48,241 nucleotides of DNA from Phycisphaeraceae bacterium (GTDB lineage Bacteria > Planctomycetota > Phycisphaerae > Phycisphaerales > UBA1924), in contig RECQ01000061.1 in assembly GCA_007693965.1 (NCBI GenBank), positions 1 through 48,241 of the forward strand. Direction: 5' to 3'. Made by a program: the position numbers and the translations under genes. Shown here piece after piece: positions 16,972-19,956 of this stretch. Under the pieces are notes generated by a model. The model saw nothing but the letters and a program-made list of their open reading frames with translations, was not told where the DNA came from and did no database searches. Each line of letters starts with the position of its first letter. The stretch's first letter is position 1.

Positions 16972-17202
16972 ATGACGCAAGCCGCAGAAAACTGGAGGGG
17001 TCGCGTGGTGTGCGATCCCGGTCTGCACCACGGCGAGCCGTGCATCCGCGGCAGCCGCATCCCGGTGGCGGTCATCGTGGCCAGTCTCGCCGACCTGAGT
17101 ATGGAAGACCTGCTGCGCGAATATCCCCAGCTTGAGCGCGAGGATGTTCGGGCGGCGCTTCTGTACGCGGCGGAGGCGGCCCACAACACGCTGGTCGCCT
17201 GA
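16972..17202 (+). CDS. DUF433 antitoxin-like protein (pair 1)
   Basis: The 76 residues are a single DUF433 domain. Typical features are the opening strand VVCDPGLHHGEPCIRGSRI, the helix VAVIVASLADLSMEDLL, and the EYPQLEREDVRAALLYAAE helix, which resembles a winged-helix DNA-binding unit. DUF433 proteins are predicted antitoxins that usually precede a DUF5615 PIN-like protein, as here with an 11-bp gap. Autoregulation of the operon is a family-based guess. Confidence 0.88.
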   Translation: MTQAAENWRGRVVCDPGLHHGEPCIRGSRIPVAVIVASLADLSMEDLLREYPQLEREDVRAALLYAAEAAHNTLVA

Positions 17203-17213
17203 GCCGCAGACGG

Positions 17214-17588
17214 ATGCCGATCAGAGTCAAACTCGACGAAGCGCTTTCGCCGCTGGTCGCTGCGCCGCTGGTGCAGTCCGGTCACCAGGTTCACACGGTT
17301 CGTGAGCAGGGGTGGGGCGGCTTGAAGGACGACGAATTGTGGTCGCGGGTGTCGGCGGAGGGGATTTTCTTCATCACGCCGGATAAGGGATTCAGCGATA
17401 TCCGTGTCTATCCGCCGGGCGGACATGCAGGAATTCTGGTTCTGCGACCTGACCGGAACAGCATCGTGGAATATCGCTCACTCATGGAGGGCGTCGTCGC
17501 GTTGACCTCGTTGGATTCTCTCGGGGGAGCTGTGGCGGTGGCGACGCCGCGTTCGCTGCGGGTGCGGCGGGCGAGTGTCGAAGGGTGA
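17214..17588 (+). CDS. DUF5615 PIN-like toxin candidate (pair 1)
   Basis: This 124-residue protein matches the PIN-like DUF5615 family, predicted nucleases paired with DUF433. The N-terminal strand with conserved acids is IRVKLDEALSPLVAAPL, and the second acidic motif is FFITPDKGFSDIRVY. The usual LLVDENLP opening is altered, and the HDADF-type motif reads TPDKGF. Of the two pairs in this window this one is the less canonical, so nuclease activity is less certain. The gene is convergent with the lipoprotein gene across a structured repeat. Confidence 0.8.
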   Translation: MPIRVKLDEALSPLVAAPLVQSGHQVHTVREQGWGGLKDDELWSRVSAEGIFFITPDKGFSDIRVYPPGGHAGILVLRPDRNSIVEYRSLMEGVVALTSLDSLGGAVAVATPRSLRVRRASVEG

Positions 17589-17596
17589 GTTGGGGC

Positions 17597-17820
17597 GGTG
17601 GCTGCTTTGCGATCATTGTGTTGGGTTCGATGAAGGGCACGCGCTCGATTGACTGTCTTCAGAATGGAGAACTCCTCCGCCCCGTCCGGGGCGGATGAGG
17701 AAGAGAAAGAAGAGAGATGTTGGCGCGTTCGGTTTCCACGGGTTGCGCTCGCGGCGGCTGCGCCGCCGCGTTGCTTCACCCGTGGCTACATGCCGCCGCC
17801 CCGTTCGGGGCGGGGGGAGG
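17597..17820. repeat. Structured dispersed repeat, copy 1
   Basis: This is a ~200-bp copy of an element found again at 19634-19843. It contains three hairpins in order: CCGCCCCGTCCGGGGCGG (17677-17694), a central two-part stem with outer arms CCACGGGT (17736-17743) and ACCCGTGG (17778-17785) around CGCGGCGGC-tgc-GCCGCCGCG (17750-17770), and CCGCCCCGTTCGGGGCGG (17796-17813). It fills the spacer between two convergent genes. It encodes no plausible protein. Confidence 0.9.
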
Positions 17821-17850
17821 AAGCCGGCCTGCGATGCAGAGGGAGGCGGG

Positions 17851-18387
17851 TCAATGGGGGAGTTCGGGGGGGAGTTCGGGCGTGTCGCCTCGGGTTGATG
17901 TGTGGCCGGTGACGAACATCCAGCGGCCATCGGAGCGCTCCAGGAGCATGGTGAAGACGCCGCTGAATTCGAAGCCCGATCCGGACATCGAAATGCGGGT
18001 CCGGAAGGACGCGCTGCCGGAGATGAACCGGTCGCAGAGCGGCTCGGTGACGACGTCCGTCAACTCTGTGTGGATGCGGGCCCATTCAGGGAACTGACGC
18101 AATGCATCAAGAACTTCATCGGCGGAGCGGTATCGGAGTGCGCCGTCCTCGAACCAGCGGAGCCGGTCGCCCGGCGCGTAGGCCGCCCGGATTGCATCGT
18201 CATTTCGCTCGGCGATGGCTGCGCTCCACCTTTCGAGAAACACCAGCACATCGGCGTGCGCATCCTGCTTCGACATCGTCGGCGCGGGCGCCGATGCGCA
18301 CCCGGTGGTGATGAGCGCGCACAGCGCTGCGAGCGGCGCCAGGGTTGTGCGGGCGCGGGCTCTCCCGGTTGCACGTGTGGTGCGCAT
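17851..18387 (-). CDS. SnoaL/NTF2-like lipoprotein
   Basis: This 178-residue protein has a basic N-region, a hydrophobic core and the lipobox ITTGC, so it should be exported and lipid-anchored. The mature part looks like an NTF2/SnoaL-like cone fold: a first helix with ADVLVFLERWSAAIAERND, then AIRAAYAPGDRLRWFEDGALRYRS, and final strands ending in MLLERSDGRWMFVTGHTS. Such domains bind small molecules or act as calcium/calmodulin-kinase-like association modules; no catalytic residues can be named. The ATG at 18387 is 2 nt past the stop of the VOC gene, so the two form an operon. Confidence 0.78.
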   Translation of the reverse strand: MRTTRATGRARARTTLAPLAALCALITTGCASAPAPTMSKQDAHADVLVFLERWSAAIAERNDDAIRAAYAPGDRLRWFEDGALRYRSADEVLDALRQFPEWARIHTELTDVVTEPLCDRFISGSASFRTRISMSGSGFEFSGVFTMLLERSDGRWMFVTGHTSTRGDTPELPPELPH

Positions 18388-18389
18388 GG

Positions 18390-18767
18390 TCACGGGCGCG
18401 CCCCCGGCTCGTACTGCATCGCGCAGGCGTGGTTGCCCTCGGTGTCCTGAAACTGGATGAGGGCGCCGACGCGCTCGATGGTGAACGGCTTCATCAGCAC
18501 CCTGCCGCCTGCGGCTTCGATCGCGCTGGCGGCGGCCTGCACGTCCTCCACCGCGATCGTGCATTCATAGCCGATCATGCCGCGGCCCTCGACGGGGTGC
18601 TGGCGCTTCTGCAGGGCGCCGCCGACCGCGCCCGGGCTGGTGTGGATGCGCCAGAAGTCCGGCGGCCCCCACGCCTCGAAGCGCCACCCGAAGGCGGACT
18701 CGTAGAATTGCTTCGCCCGGGCACAATCGTCGGCGTGGATGGCGAAGTGGGCGAGATCGTTGGGCAT
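18390..18767 (-). CDS. VOC (glyoxalase-like) family protein
   Basis: The 125 residues form one VOC unit with paired beta-alpha-beta-beta-beta modules: LAHFAIHADDCARAKQFYES, FGWRFEAWGPPDFWRI, then the second half with ECTIAVEDVQAAASAIEAAGG and FQDTEGNHACAMQYEP. Metal ligands typical of the fold (His8 and a late Glu) are possible. The reaction is unknown. AAGGAG 6-7 nt before the ATG sets the start. The gene is divergent from an AraC regulator with 74 bp between starts, which suggests control by that regulator. Confidence 0.88.
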   Translation of the reverse strand: MPNDLAHFAIHADDCARAKQFYESAFGWRFEAWGPPDFWRIHTSPGAVGGALQKRQHPVEGRGMIGYECTIAVEDVQAAASAIEAAGGRVLMKPFTIERVGALIQFQDTEGNHACAMQYEPGARP

Positions 18768-18841
18768 GGTCGGCTCCTTGATGGTGGAGAGGGGATGATG
18801 CCGGAGTCGCGGGCGGCGGTCTTGCGGCATACTGTCAAGGA

Positions 18842-19627
18842 ATGCCTTGTATCCGCCAATCCGGCGCCGCCGTCGAGTCGGCGCCCATTGTCCGGTCCCT
18901 CGGGCTGCGATTCGCGTCCGGGCATCGGATCGACGATCACGGGCACACGTGGGCGCAGGTCGTCTTCGCGGCGCGGGGCGTGATGAGCGTCGAGGCGATG
19001 GGGAAGCAGTGGGTCGTGCCGCCAAGCCGCAGCGTGTGGATGCCGGCGGGCGTCCCGCACTCGATCGAGGTCGTCGGCGAGACCTGGATGCGGACGGTCT
19101 ACCTGCGGCCGGACATCGCGGCGGCGCTGCCGGACGCCGTCCGTGTAATCGATGTCTCGCCGCTGCTGCGCGAGCTGCTGCTCGAGGTCGTCCGGATGGG
19201 ATGCATGGATGAGGCGGACGATGTTCACAGGAATTTCGCGGGCGTGCTGGTCGCGCAGCTCGCGCGCGCGCCCGAGCTCGAGCTGGCGCTGCCGATGCCG
19301 GCCGATCCTCGTGCGCGGCGGGTGGCGAGCCGGGTGCGCGATGATCATGCAGCAGATGCGCCGCTGGCCGCGCTGGCGAGGGGCGCCGGCGCGAGCCCGC
19401 GCACGCTGGAGCGGATCTTCCTGAAGGAGACCGGGCTGACCTTCGGTCGGTGGCGTCAGCAGGCTCGCCTGCAGCATGCGGTGTGCCTCCTGGCGCAGGG
19501 CGCATCGGTGACGACGGTTTCGTTCGAGTGCGGGTACGACAGTCCGAGCGCGTTCGTGACGATGTTCAAGCGGTCGCTCGGCACGACGCCGGGTCGTTAC
19601 ATGCGGAGCGCGGATTTCTCGCCTTGA
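18842..19627 (+). CDS. AraC-family transcriptional regulator with cupin domain
   Basis: The N-terminal ~110 of 261 residues form a cupin sensor with the HxH metal site (DDHGHTWAQV, His33 and His35) and SVWMPAGVPHSIEV. The C-terminal part is the double helix-turn-helix of AraC proteins (PLAALARGAGASPRTLERIF, LLAQGASVTTVSFECGYDS, FKRSLGTTPGRYMR). The layout resembles NimR-type regulators. CATACT (18828-18833) ends 8 nt before the ATG. The gene is divergent from the VOC/SnoaL operon, its most likely target. Confidence 0.92.
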   Translation: MPCIRQSGAAVESAPIVRSLGLRFASGHRIDDHGHTWAQVVFAARGVMSVEAMGKQWVVPPSRSVWMPAGVPHSIEVVGETWMRTVYLRPDIAAALPDAVRVIDVSPLLRELLLEVVRMGCMDEADDVHRNFAGVLVAQLARAPELELALPMPADPRARRVASRVRDDHAADAPLAALARGAGASPRTLERIFLKETGLTFGRWRQQARLQHAVCLLAQGASVTTVSFECGYDSPSAFVTMFKRSLGTTPGRYMRSADFSP

Positions 19628-19633
19628 GAGGCG

Positions 19634-19843
19634 CGTGGGTGGTTGCTTTGAGCTCATGGGGTTGAGTTTGATGAGCTGTCTTCAGGATGGAGAACTCCTC
19701 CGCCCCGTCCGGGGCGGTTGAGGTTGGGGAGAAGAGGGAGGGGGTGGCGCGTCCGATTACAACGGGTTGCGCTCGCGGCGGCTGCGCCGCCGCGTTGCTT
19801 CACCCGTTGCTACATTCCGCCGCCCCGTTCGGGGCGGGGTGAG
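19634..19843. repeat. Structured dispersed repeat, copy 2
   Basis: This is a direct copy of the element at 17597-17820, with the same three hairpins: CCGCCCCGTCCGGGGCGG (19700-19717), a central stem with CAACGGGT (19760-19767) and ACCCGTTG (19802-19809) around CGCGGCGGC-tgc-GCCGCCGCG (19774-19794), and CCGCCCCGTTCGGGGCGG (19820-19837). Against copy 1 the outer arms change together (CCAC/GTGG to CAAC/GTTG). It fills most of the 342-bp spacer between araC and leuS. The 126 bp after it hold only the leuS -10 candidate. Confidence 0.9.
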
Positions 19844-19956
19844 GGAGGGCCGGGGCTGGTCGAGAGAAGCCGGGGCGGTTTGAAGGAGGTTGGTCTGCGG
19901 CGTGTCGCGGTGAATCCGTCCCGCGTCGGATTCCCCGCCGCGGCGGGCAACTGGCG

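Follow-up and report, generated by a model that had tools for sequence, protein, structure and literature searches.

Dispersed three-hairpin repeats of a planctomycete genome as likely terminal units of a REPtron-like element with an IS200-class transposase

The ends of IS200/IS605 elements (TnpA subclass 1.1, e.g. ISDra2 and IS608) carry one hairpin each, and both are found on the same strand. GTAG-tagged REPs, which form REPtrons with transposases of the RAYT/TnpA-REP type (class 2 TnpA-Y1), usually exceed 100 copies per genome according to the available text of PMC2817692. TIRtrons, with their TIRYT transposases, are described as having a Y1 gene between inverted ends of several hairpins (Di Nocera et al. 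2013, PMC3733652, in the text available), and degenerate REPs next to another stem-loop are described there, in hundreds of copies, for Pseudomonas putida and P. fluorescens. TIRYT transposases are RAYT-like, and 20 of 26 belong to subclass 2.1 and have an HTH domain according to the accessible part of PMC6006769. The same source (Quentin et al. 2018) depicts TnpA-Y1 subclass 1.2, mostly from Cyanobacteria and Bacteroidetes, as generally lacking typical terminal IS200 structures. Class 3 (Planctomycetes and Acidobacteria), as far as the accessible description goes, resembles both IS and REPtrons and has repeated atypical structures.

The window analysed here, i.e. the whole 48,241-nt stretch of contig RECQ01000061.1 of a Phycisphaeraceae bacterium, contains two direct copies of a repeat (Table 1, where the outer limits of similarity are approximate), and the hairpins and large central stem attributed to them in the original prediction were located in each. 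On the strand carrying GTAG, the unit consists of hairpin C, a gap of mostly 6–8 nt, a foot NTAG (usually GTAG), the palindrome B, a spacer measuring tens of nucleotides (41–42 nt in the window copies) and hairpin A. The copies are 89% identical over a 113-nt block and 96% identical over a 48-nt block. The predicted paired change in the outer stem, CCAC..GTGG against CAAC..GTTG, was confirmed, and is the sole base pair of B differing between the copies, the inner stem being identical. A strict structural scan (GTAG, a perfect 8-bp stem and an adjacent hairpin) gave exactly two sites in the window and no third copy, compared to a mean of 0.02 and a maximum of 1 in 50 dinucleotide shuffles; it was used instead of a looser detector, which was dropped as it returned 20 matches in the real window and 9–19 in shuffled ones. 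Folded as DNA, each copy is better than 200 of 200 shuffles (z of −4.1 for copy 1 and −4.9 for copy 2). Both copies, the two of at least 33 in the genome that were placed relative to genes, are intergenic: copy 1 occupies the spacer in which a DUF5615 gene and a SnoaL gene converge (gene families assigned), and copy 2 between an AraC-family gene and leuS, the latter named from its relatives.

Table 1. Position of the repeat copies and their parts in the window (strand is that carrying GTAG).
Feature	Position	Strand	Basis or sequence
Copy 1, full span of similarity to copy 2	17597..17823	-	pairwise similarity
Hairpin A, copy 1	17677..17694	-	CCGCCCC-GGAC-GGGGCGG on - strand
Central palindrome B, copy 1	17736..17785	-	outer stem CCACGGGT/ACCCGTGG; inner stem CGCGGCGGC/GCCGCCGCG
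GTAG foot of B, copy 1	17786..17789	-	CTAC at 3' foot of B on + strand
Hairpin C, copy 1	17796..17813	-	CCGCCCC-GAAC-GGGGCGG on - strand
Copy 2, full span of similarity to copy 1	19640..19847	-	pairwise similarity
Hairpin A, copy 2	19700..19717	-	structural scan
Central palindrome B, copy 2	19760..19809	-	outer stem CAACGGGT/ACCCGTTG, C-G to A-T compensated
GTAG foot of B, copy 2	19810..19813	-	CTAC at 3' foot of B on + strand
Hairpin C, copy 2	19820..19837	-	structural scan

The repeat is not confined to the two copies from which the original prediction was made, since a covariance model (E ≤ 1.5e-5, 3.48 Mb) recovers no fewer than 33 copies, spread over 13 contigs of the genome, so that the absence of further copies, named with the original prediction as refuting it, does not hold. 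This is fewer than is usual for REPs, the numbers being lower bounds (scores were computed for 150 of 6435 first-look candidates, and for 40 of 73 in another search). Eight inverted doublets are formed among the copies, a further pair surrounds the gene of a Y1 transposase, and the remaining copies are solo or tandem. Among the 150 places listed in the survey of 201 genomes, 31 of the 42 near pairs have GTAG pointing outward, with gaps of either 65–171 nt (23 pairs) or 568–917 nt (8 pairs). Six of the eight wide pairs enclose a TnpA match and two enclose none.

The tnpA gene of this genome, on contig C35, is bracketed on both sides by a C-GTAG-B-A unit, in inverted orientation, and its reading frame runs into hairpin A. 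The protein scores above the NCBIfam cut-off for IS200 and below that for REP_Tyr_transpos (16.8 bits, with a cut-off of 80), PF01797 is the sole Pfam family found at E ≤ 0.01, and the fold matches that of ISDra2 TnpA (E ~1e-9) and, more weakly, that of the TnpA-REP 4er8 (1.7e-5). Both HUH histidines and the tyrosine are invariant in 15 aligned TnpA sequences; the second of these histidines is lost in the TnpA of locus L032. The tyrosine motif Y---Q--HH, which reads YIEGQAEHH in the genome's own copy, is present in 94 of 101 TnpA loci. These loci comprise 30 from one search and 71 of 80 from a second, nine having been left out (eight judged to be the same as loci of the first search, and L090, cut off inside the gene). 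By this published motif, the transposase is assigned to subclass 1.2 of the IS200-class Y1 HUH TnpA. Its copy number is low, with 1–7 matches per positive genome.

Bracketing extends to the relatives. Among the 93 loci whose 320-nt flanks are complete (92 different ones, since L039 and L067 are identical), an inverted unit is found upstream of TnpA in 67, downstream in 63, on both sides in 52 and on either side in 78, as opposed to 6 of 930 shuffled flanks and 1 of 27 RAYT control loci (out of 30, three truncated ones being excluded). The flank scan finds no unit at the other 15 loci, and a unit of opposite orientation also occurs, upstream in 19 flanks and downstream in 12. Among plasmid records, used to reach the published hosts of subclass 1.2, six have a TnpA match, of which five were examined, the sixth being from a second strain of Leptolyngbya boryana. 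The TnpA of the Persicobacter plasmid has both the Y---Q--HH motif and the end architecture, that of the Bernardetia plasmid has the motif and no unit, and the remaining three (two from cyanobacteria, one from Deinococcus) show neither the motif nor, on visual inspection, the architecture.

The repeat and TnpA also co-occur. The canonical B pattern is found in 29 of 40 genomes with TnpA and in 12 of 161 without it (201 genomes; p = 1e-16, a Fisher value that is optimistic because the species are not independent), while a backwards-pattern control gave 0. Within the family, the corresponding counts are 20 of 30 and 9 of 38. The repeat is present in 5 of 30 genomes with RAYT alone, and in 7 of 131 with neither transposase. 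The exceptions are the 11 TnpA genomes without the canonical pattern and the 12 genomes with the pattern where no TnpA was detected.

Stem sequences change between phyla while the architecture is kept, and the foot variants ATAG and TTAG are mainly seen in distant relatives. The similarity of the B arms is predicted by that of TnpA (Mantel r = 0.56, 0 of 2000 permutations, for the 86 of 101 loci with TAG foot, B and C detected), a correlation which would also be expected from common descent of the gene and its ends. Hairpin C, which was not used for selection, has a perfect stem of at least 5 bp in 95 of 97 contexts (those of 118 in which 5 or more of the 7 outer pairs form), compared to 126 of 970 shuffles. 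Changes on both sides of a pair amount to 19 cells, against 3.3 in shuffles, in the 37 of 48 rows in which 6 or more of the 7 outer pairs form; the B rows were preselected for pairing and C was not, and about 7 of the 37 rows come from the own genome and are matched by model R1 by construction. When the anchors are placed without requiring pairing, compensation is found for 11 left-arm changes (mean of 1.8 and maximum of 7 in 500 shuffles), while 17 result in a G-T wobble and 16 break the pair, in some cases because of mis-anchoring. Compensation is mixed, i.e. above chance and not universal.

One locus differs in occupancy between relatives: G009, G024 and G004 carry the unit there, and their congener G029 is empty; in G014, the flanks are matched in part, on two contigs, which is uninformative. 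The strict scan finds no unit in the 124-nt spacer of G029. Because 39 bases of this spacer can be aligned with a B palindrome at its end, with a score reached by 1 of 500 shuffles, G029 is probably better read as a loss than as a plain empty site. Among close strains, no insertion event was seen, nor any precise never-occupied site lacking tnpA and both units. The search of relatives for empty sites, suggested along with the original prediction, led to a difference in occupancy, although probably a loss and at another place than the window copies, whose genus is represented by this genome alone.

Taken together, it is likely that the window repeats are solo, non-autonomous terminal units of a REPtron-like element that is, or once was, moved by an IS200-class TnpA. 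The "REP/BIME-like" element and the "non-autonomous mobile element", offered as separate options in the original prediction, were both right and are here one and the same thing. The autonomous form would consist of two inverted units around the gene of the IS200-class Y1 HUH transposase, from which inverted doublets too short for a gene, tandem C-B units and solo ends, such as both window copies, would derive. Hairpins C, B and A would fold on a strand exposed at the replication fork, and TnpA would bind B with its TAG foot, the foot acting as the guide that chooses the cleavage site, as in some TnpA-REP and IS200/IS605 transposases. TnpA would then cut via a 5'-phosphotyrosine link and transfer the strand, by which the unit would be copied or excised.

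The repeats could instead be independent chromosomal palindromes, with transposase genes inserted into or between them, in the way ISPpu9 of P. putida is described as sitting in REPs (available text of PMC8450116). This would suit the 12 genomes that have the B pattern and no detected TnpA, but we find it very doubtful, given that units lie inverted on both sides of 52 of 93 TnpA loci, that the inverted doublets are narrow in size and too short for a gene, that the stem sequence tracks TnpA similarity and that the own tnpA frame enters hairpin A. A composite mobile unit carrying the SnoaL, VOC and AraC genes is harder still to credit, even if the two copies are sister repeats of considerable length. 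In its favour, no relative of AraC or VOC (E ≤ 1e-3) was found next to leuS elsewhere in the family: 38 members had a leuS match and 29 loci were examined, each for 1.5 kb past the match, a stretch that could show AraC and most of VOC, with SnoaL and DUF5615 expected beyond it. No tnpA is found between the copies. They do flank the three-gene block, as had been predicted, but do not bracket it as the ends of an element would, because both have the same orientation, and the block is probably incidental.

It is also unlikely that the units are kept as RNA elements of 3' ends (terminators, mRNA stabilisers or processing signals), with mobility being secondary or having ended. Both window copies start shortly after a stop codon and fold strongly, and such roles have been hypothesised for REPs in the available text of PMC3733652; however, the scan for terminators and promoters found nothing at either window copy, no Rfam family reaches its threshold in them (a match at a permissive threshold, with 17 bits and a cut-off of 40, is a chance match), and both the conservation of the TAG foot and the link to TnpA would be left unexplained. 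The small structured RNA considered in the original prediction therefore finds no support, though an RNA role could arise as a side effect of the units.

Viewed as transposon ends, the units share with GTAG-tagged REPs and REPtrons a palindrome whose 5' side bears a GTAG foot, the dispersed copies, the inverted doublets (REPIN/BIME-like) and the bracketed Y1 HUH gene; they differ by their two additional small hairpins, by a foot that is NTAG, and by a transposase which is of the IS200 class and below the REP transposase cut-off instead of RAYT. With IS200/IS605 they share the TnpA fold and catalytic residues, whereas the ends are here inverted composite three-hairpin units, of which solo ends and doublets are dispersed. 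TIRtrons and double-palindromic TIRs likewise have inverted multi-hairpin ends flanking a Y1 gene, but this gene is RAYT-like and not of the IS200 type with PF01797 only; the comparison is with their published description, their R. baltica repeats being given as sequences in figures and lying outside it. Class 3 overlaps in host phyla and differs, as far as described in the text available, by its motif Y----Q and foot CnGA, compared to Y---Q--HH and NTAG here. Subclass 1.2 has the same motif and low copy number, yet differs from its published account, in the part available, in that most of the genes here have ends, in planctomycetes and other phyla. Searches of the open-licence literature listed no account of ends of this form for subclass 1.2. 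With confidence barely above even, we propose a third kind of REP system beside RAYT (class 2) and class 3, in which a subclass 1.2 IS200-class TnpA, present in seven phyla going by record titles, would act on the compound end C-TAG-B-A. IS200 elements and REPs would have the TAG foot in common as a guide, with the small hairpins as a new end component setting the cleavage position or the pairing of the ends.

Although the 2018 account of subclass 1.2 reports a general lack of typical ends, the subclass appears to have ends that join IS200 and REP features, and the substrate of its TnpA becomes testable in vitro. This reading would account for a repeat that stands out in planctomycete genomes, and provides a way to approach the unsettled origin of REPs from insertion sequences.

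The window spans the entire contig C57 of a 3.48-Mb genome, and both direct repeat copies noted in it were recovered; each is a composite of three hairpins. A strict structural detector found exactly these two sites in the 48 kb (mean 0.02 sites in 50 shuffled windows, none with more than 1), and a covariance model likewise gave these two copies, followed by a match with an E-value of 0.19. The proposed compensatory base change is present as one changed pair in the outer stem of palindrome B, which reads CCACGGGT/ACCCGTGG in copy 1 and CAACGGGT/ACCCGTTG in copy 2. Some tens of nucleotides beyond hairpin A are also common to both copies, and since the first 35 nt of this stretch are covered by no other scored match of the DNA search, the two are considered close sisters. 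Directly before copy 1 lies a DUF5615 gene (PF18480), which forms a toxin-antitoxin-like pair with the preceding ORF, which we take to be DUF433-like.

Location of the repeat copies, their parts (in minus-strand order) and associated features
Feature	Location	Strand	Sequence or length
Copy 1	window 17597-17823	-	
Copy 2	window 19640-19847	-	
Hairpin C	first in each copy	-	CCGCCCC-GAAC-GGGGCGG
GTAG	after short spacer following hairpin C	-	
Palindrome B	after GTAG	-	50 nt
Spacer	B to hairpin A	-	41-42 nt
Hairpin A	after the spacer following B	-	CCGCCCC-GGAC-GGGGCGG
76-aa ORF and DUF5615 gene	window 16972-17588	+	
Tandem B-C units (L004-L007)	contig C35 87055-87287		
tnpA running into hairpin A	locus L024 1489-1983		
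Broken TnpA relative	contig C19, locus L025 1525-1940		
Unit upstream of leuS (L205)	genome G092 C2:670267-670313		

The repeat is dispersed, as the original prediction supposed. The DNA search of the genome gave 23 matches, the window copies among them, and the covariance model (37 composite units from this and related genomes, some of the genome's own included) gave at least 33 copies at E ≤ 1.5e-5, with the next match at 0.7; this is a lower bound, since scoring covered 150 of the 6435 first-look candidates. The copies are spread over 13 contigs. In eight inverted pairs, whose GTAG sites point outward, the units are only 98-167 nt apart, which leaves no room for tnpA; another pair of this kind, 579 nt apart, has tnpA inside, and four neighbouring pairs are in tandem. 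On contig C35, three B-C units in tandem (period 84 nt) show that part of the unit has been amplified locally. By eye, some copies have about 50 further nucleotides in common outside hairpin C (on the right in L172 and L173, on the left in L014), and may represent one subfamily with longer ends.

Five PF01797 (Y1 transposase) matches were found in the genome, four of them exceeding the cut-off. The strongest, on contig C35, has two tandem units immediately upstream and one inverted unit immediately downstream. Its product is above the NCBIfam cut-off for IS200/IS605 transposases and below that for REP-associated ones, and its nearest solved structures by sequence are the TnpA entries 2xm3 and 2xma (ISDra2) and 2fyx, followed by IS608 TnpA. 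A structure model from 15 aligned relatives (mean pLDDT 87.8) matched ISDra2 TnpA at about 1e-9, compared with 1.7e-5 for the TnpA-REP 4er8. H55, H57 and Y115 are invariant among these 15; L032, outside this set, has Q in place of H57. The tyrosine motif, YIEGQAEHH, fits Y---Q--HH (present in 94/101 TnpA proteins), the signature motif of subclass 1.2 (Quentin et al. 2018, PMC6006769), whose hosts are, in that paper's account of the subclass, mostly Cyanobacteria and Bacteroidetes and which is described there as generally lacking typical terminal IS200 structures. At one locus (L024) hairpin A encodes the last residues of tnpA. The broken relative on contig C19 (45% identical, one TAG stop) stands beside its own palindrome CCAGGGGCTGAAGCCCCTGG, CTAC and a small hairpin, and is a separate family with the same layout. 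Three further Y1-like genes of the genome (L026, L027, L028) each lie, by eye, near another repeated palindrome.

TnpA occurs in 40 of the 201 genomes of the order (E ≤ 1e-15). From named records 80 loci were fetched. Most of the titles give Phycisphaerales or other Planctomycetota, and some give Verrucomicrobia, Acidobacteria or other groups, although names on metagenome-assembled genome records may be wrong; relatives also appear in such records titled Akkermansia muciniphila and Klebsiella pneumoniae (L119, L121), where the species names are doubtful. Flanks were examined by structure, ignoring stem sequence (a hairpin, a gap of 4-14 nt, TAG, a 7-bp stem allowing one mismatch, and another hairpin within 10-60 nt). 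The unit was found upstream of TnpA in 67/93 loci, downstream in 63/93, on both sides in 52/93 and on at least one in 78/93, compared with 6/930 shuffled flanks and 1/27 control loci with genes for REP-associated transposases (RAYT) of the same order. In opposite orientation it was found in 19 (upstream) and 12 (downstream) of the 93.

The pattern GTAGCCACGGGTN{6,36}SAACCCGTGG was present in 41/201 genomes (none for the backwards control): 29/40 with TnpA versus 12/161 without (Fisher p 1e-16) and, within the window's family, 20/30 versus 9/38 (p 5e-4), these p values being optimistic because of shared ancestry. Split by RAYT, the counts were 16/22 (TnpA and RAYT), 13/18 (TnpA alone), 5/30 (RAYT alone) and 7/131 (neither). 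Among 150 pattern places, GTAG pointed outward in 31 of 42 neighbouring pairs (within 1.2 kb), with gaps of 65-171 nt (23 pairs) or 568-917 nt (8 pairs). By coordinate comparison, six of the eight wide pairs (568, 572, 589, 605, 672 and 820 nt) contain a TnpA match and two (886 and 917 nt) do not.

Compensation across copies held in part. Using anchors that do not demand pairing, 11 outer left-arm changes were compensated (shuffles: mean 1.8, maximum 7), 17 gave a G-T wobble and 16 were broken, which is evidence for pairing, although the picture is not clean. In the 37-row alignment, both sides changed in 19 cells versus 3.3 in shuffles, and pairing was 97.8% versus about 60% or less for slid structures. 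Hairpin C, which lay outside the selection criteria, forms a mismatch-free stem of 5 bp or more in 95/97 cases (126/970 shuffled 32-mers), ends 6-8 nt before GTAG in 90/95, and has a GAA or GGA loop in 51; C-GNA-G loops form very stable DNA hairpins. The foot, for which TAG was required, is GTAG in 66 of 86 loci, ATAG in 11, TTAG in 7 and CTAG in 2. B-arm likeness rises with TnpA identity, from a mean of 0.63 at 40-50% to 0.92 above 70% (Mantel r 0.56, 0 of 2000 permutations, 86 loci). By eye, all three stems differ between phyla and the order C-TAG-B-A is constant, among records whose titles name Sumerlaeota, Verrucomicrobia, Pyrinomonadaceae, Acidobacteria, Thermodesulfobacteriota, Calditrichaceae and Planctomycetota, as well as in a Persicobacter plasmid (Bacteroidota).

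The preferred interpretation is that the window copies are solo ends of a three-hairpin TnpA element. Judging from work on TnpA-REP and IS200/IS605 (PMC8266576), TnpA would bind and cleave such ends with the foot as guide. Past movement is indicated by the scatter of the copies, the doublets and the solo ends; no direct case of insertion was found. One genus has the element between uppP-like and alcohol-dehydrogenase-like genes (named by eye) in genomes G009, G024 and G004, with two upstream units in tandem in G009 and one in G024 (by eye). In G029 the same flanks (73% and 78% identical) are 124 nt apart and the element is absent; a strict scan of this spacer gave no unit, only two 5-bp hairpins. 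Since the end of a B palindrome can be aligned with 39 nt of this spacer (score matched by 1/500 shuffles), G029 most likely lost the element and retained a scrap. The SnoaL/VOC/AraC block between the window copies is unlikely to be cargo, because the copies are direct and there is no transposase. In 29 relatives from the family, the 1.5 kb next to leuS contained no AraC or VOC relatives, which says nothing on the region's history. One of the 29 (G092) also has a unit about 250 nt before leuS, oriented relative to the gene as copy 2 is; this is probably a coincidence.

The Y1 transposase and the GTAG palindrome are already known kinds. Di Nocera et al. 2013 (PMC3733652) describe double-palindromic TIRs as well as GTAG repeats from planctomycetes (R. 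baltica), and the repeats listed there, whose sequences are given in figures, may already include part of the B family. As far as the literature searched shows, what is new is the combination of an IS200-class subclass 1.2 TnpA with inverted three-hairpin ends, which also occur as dispersed REP-like repeats.
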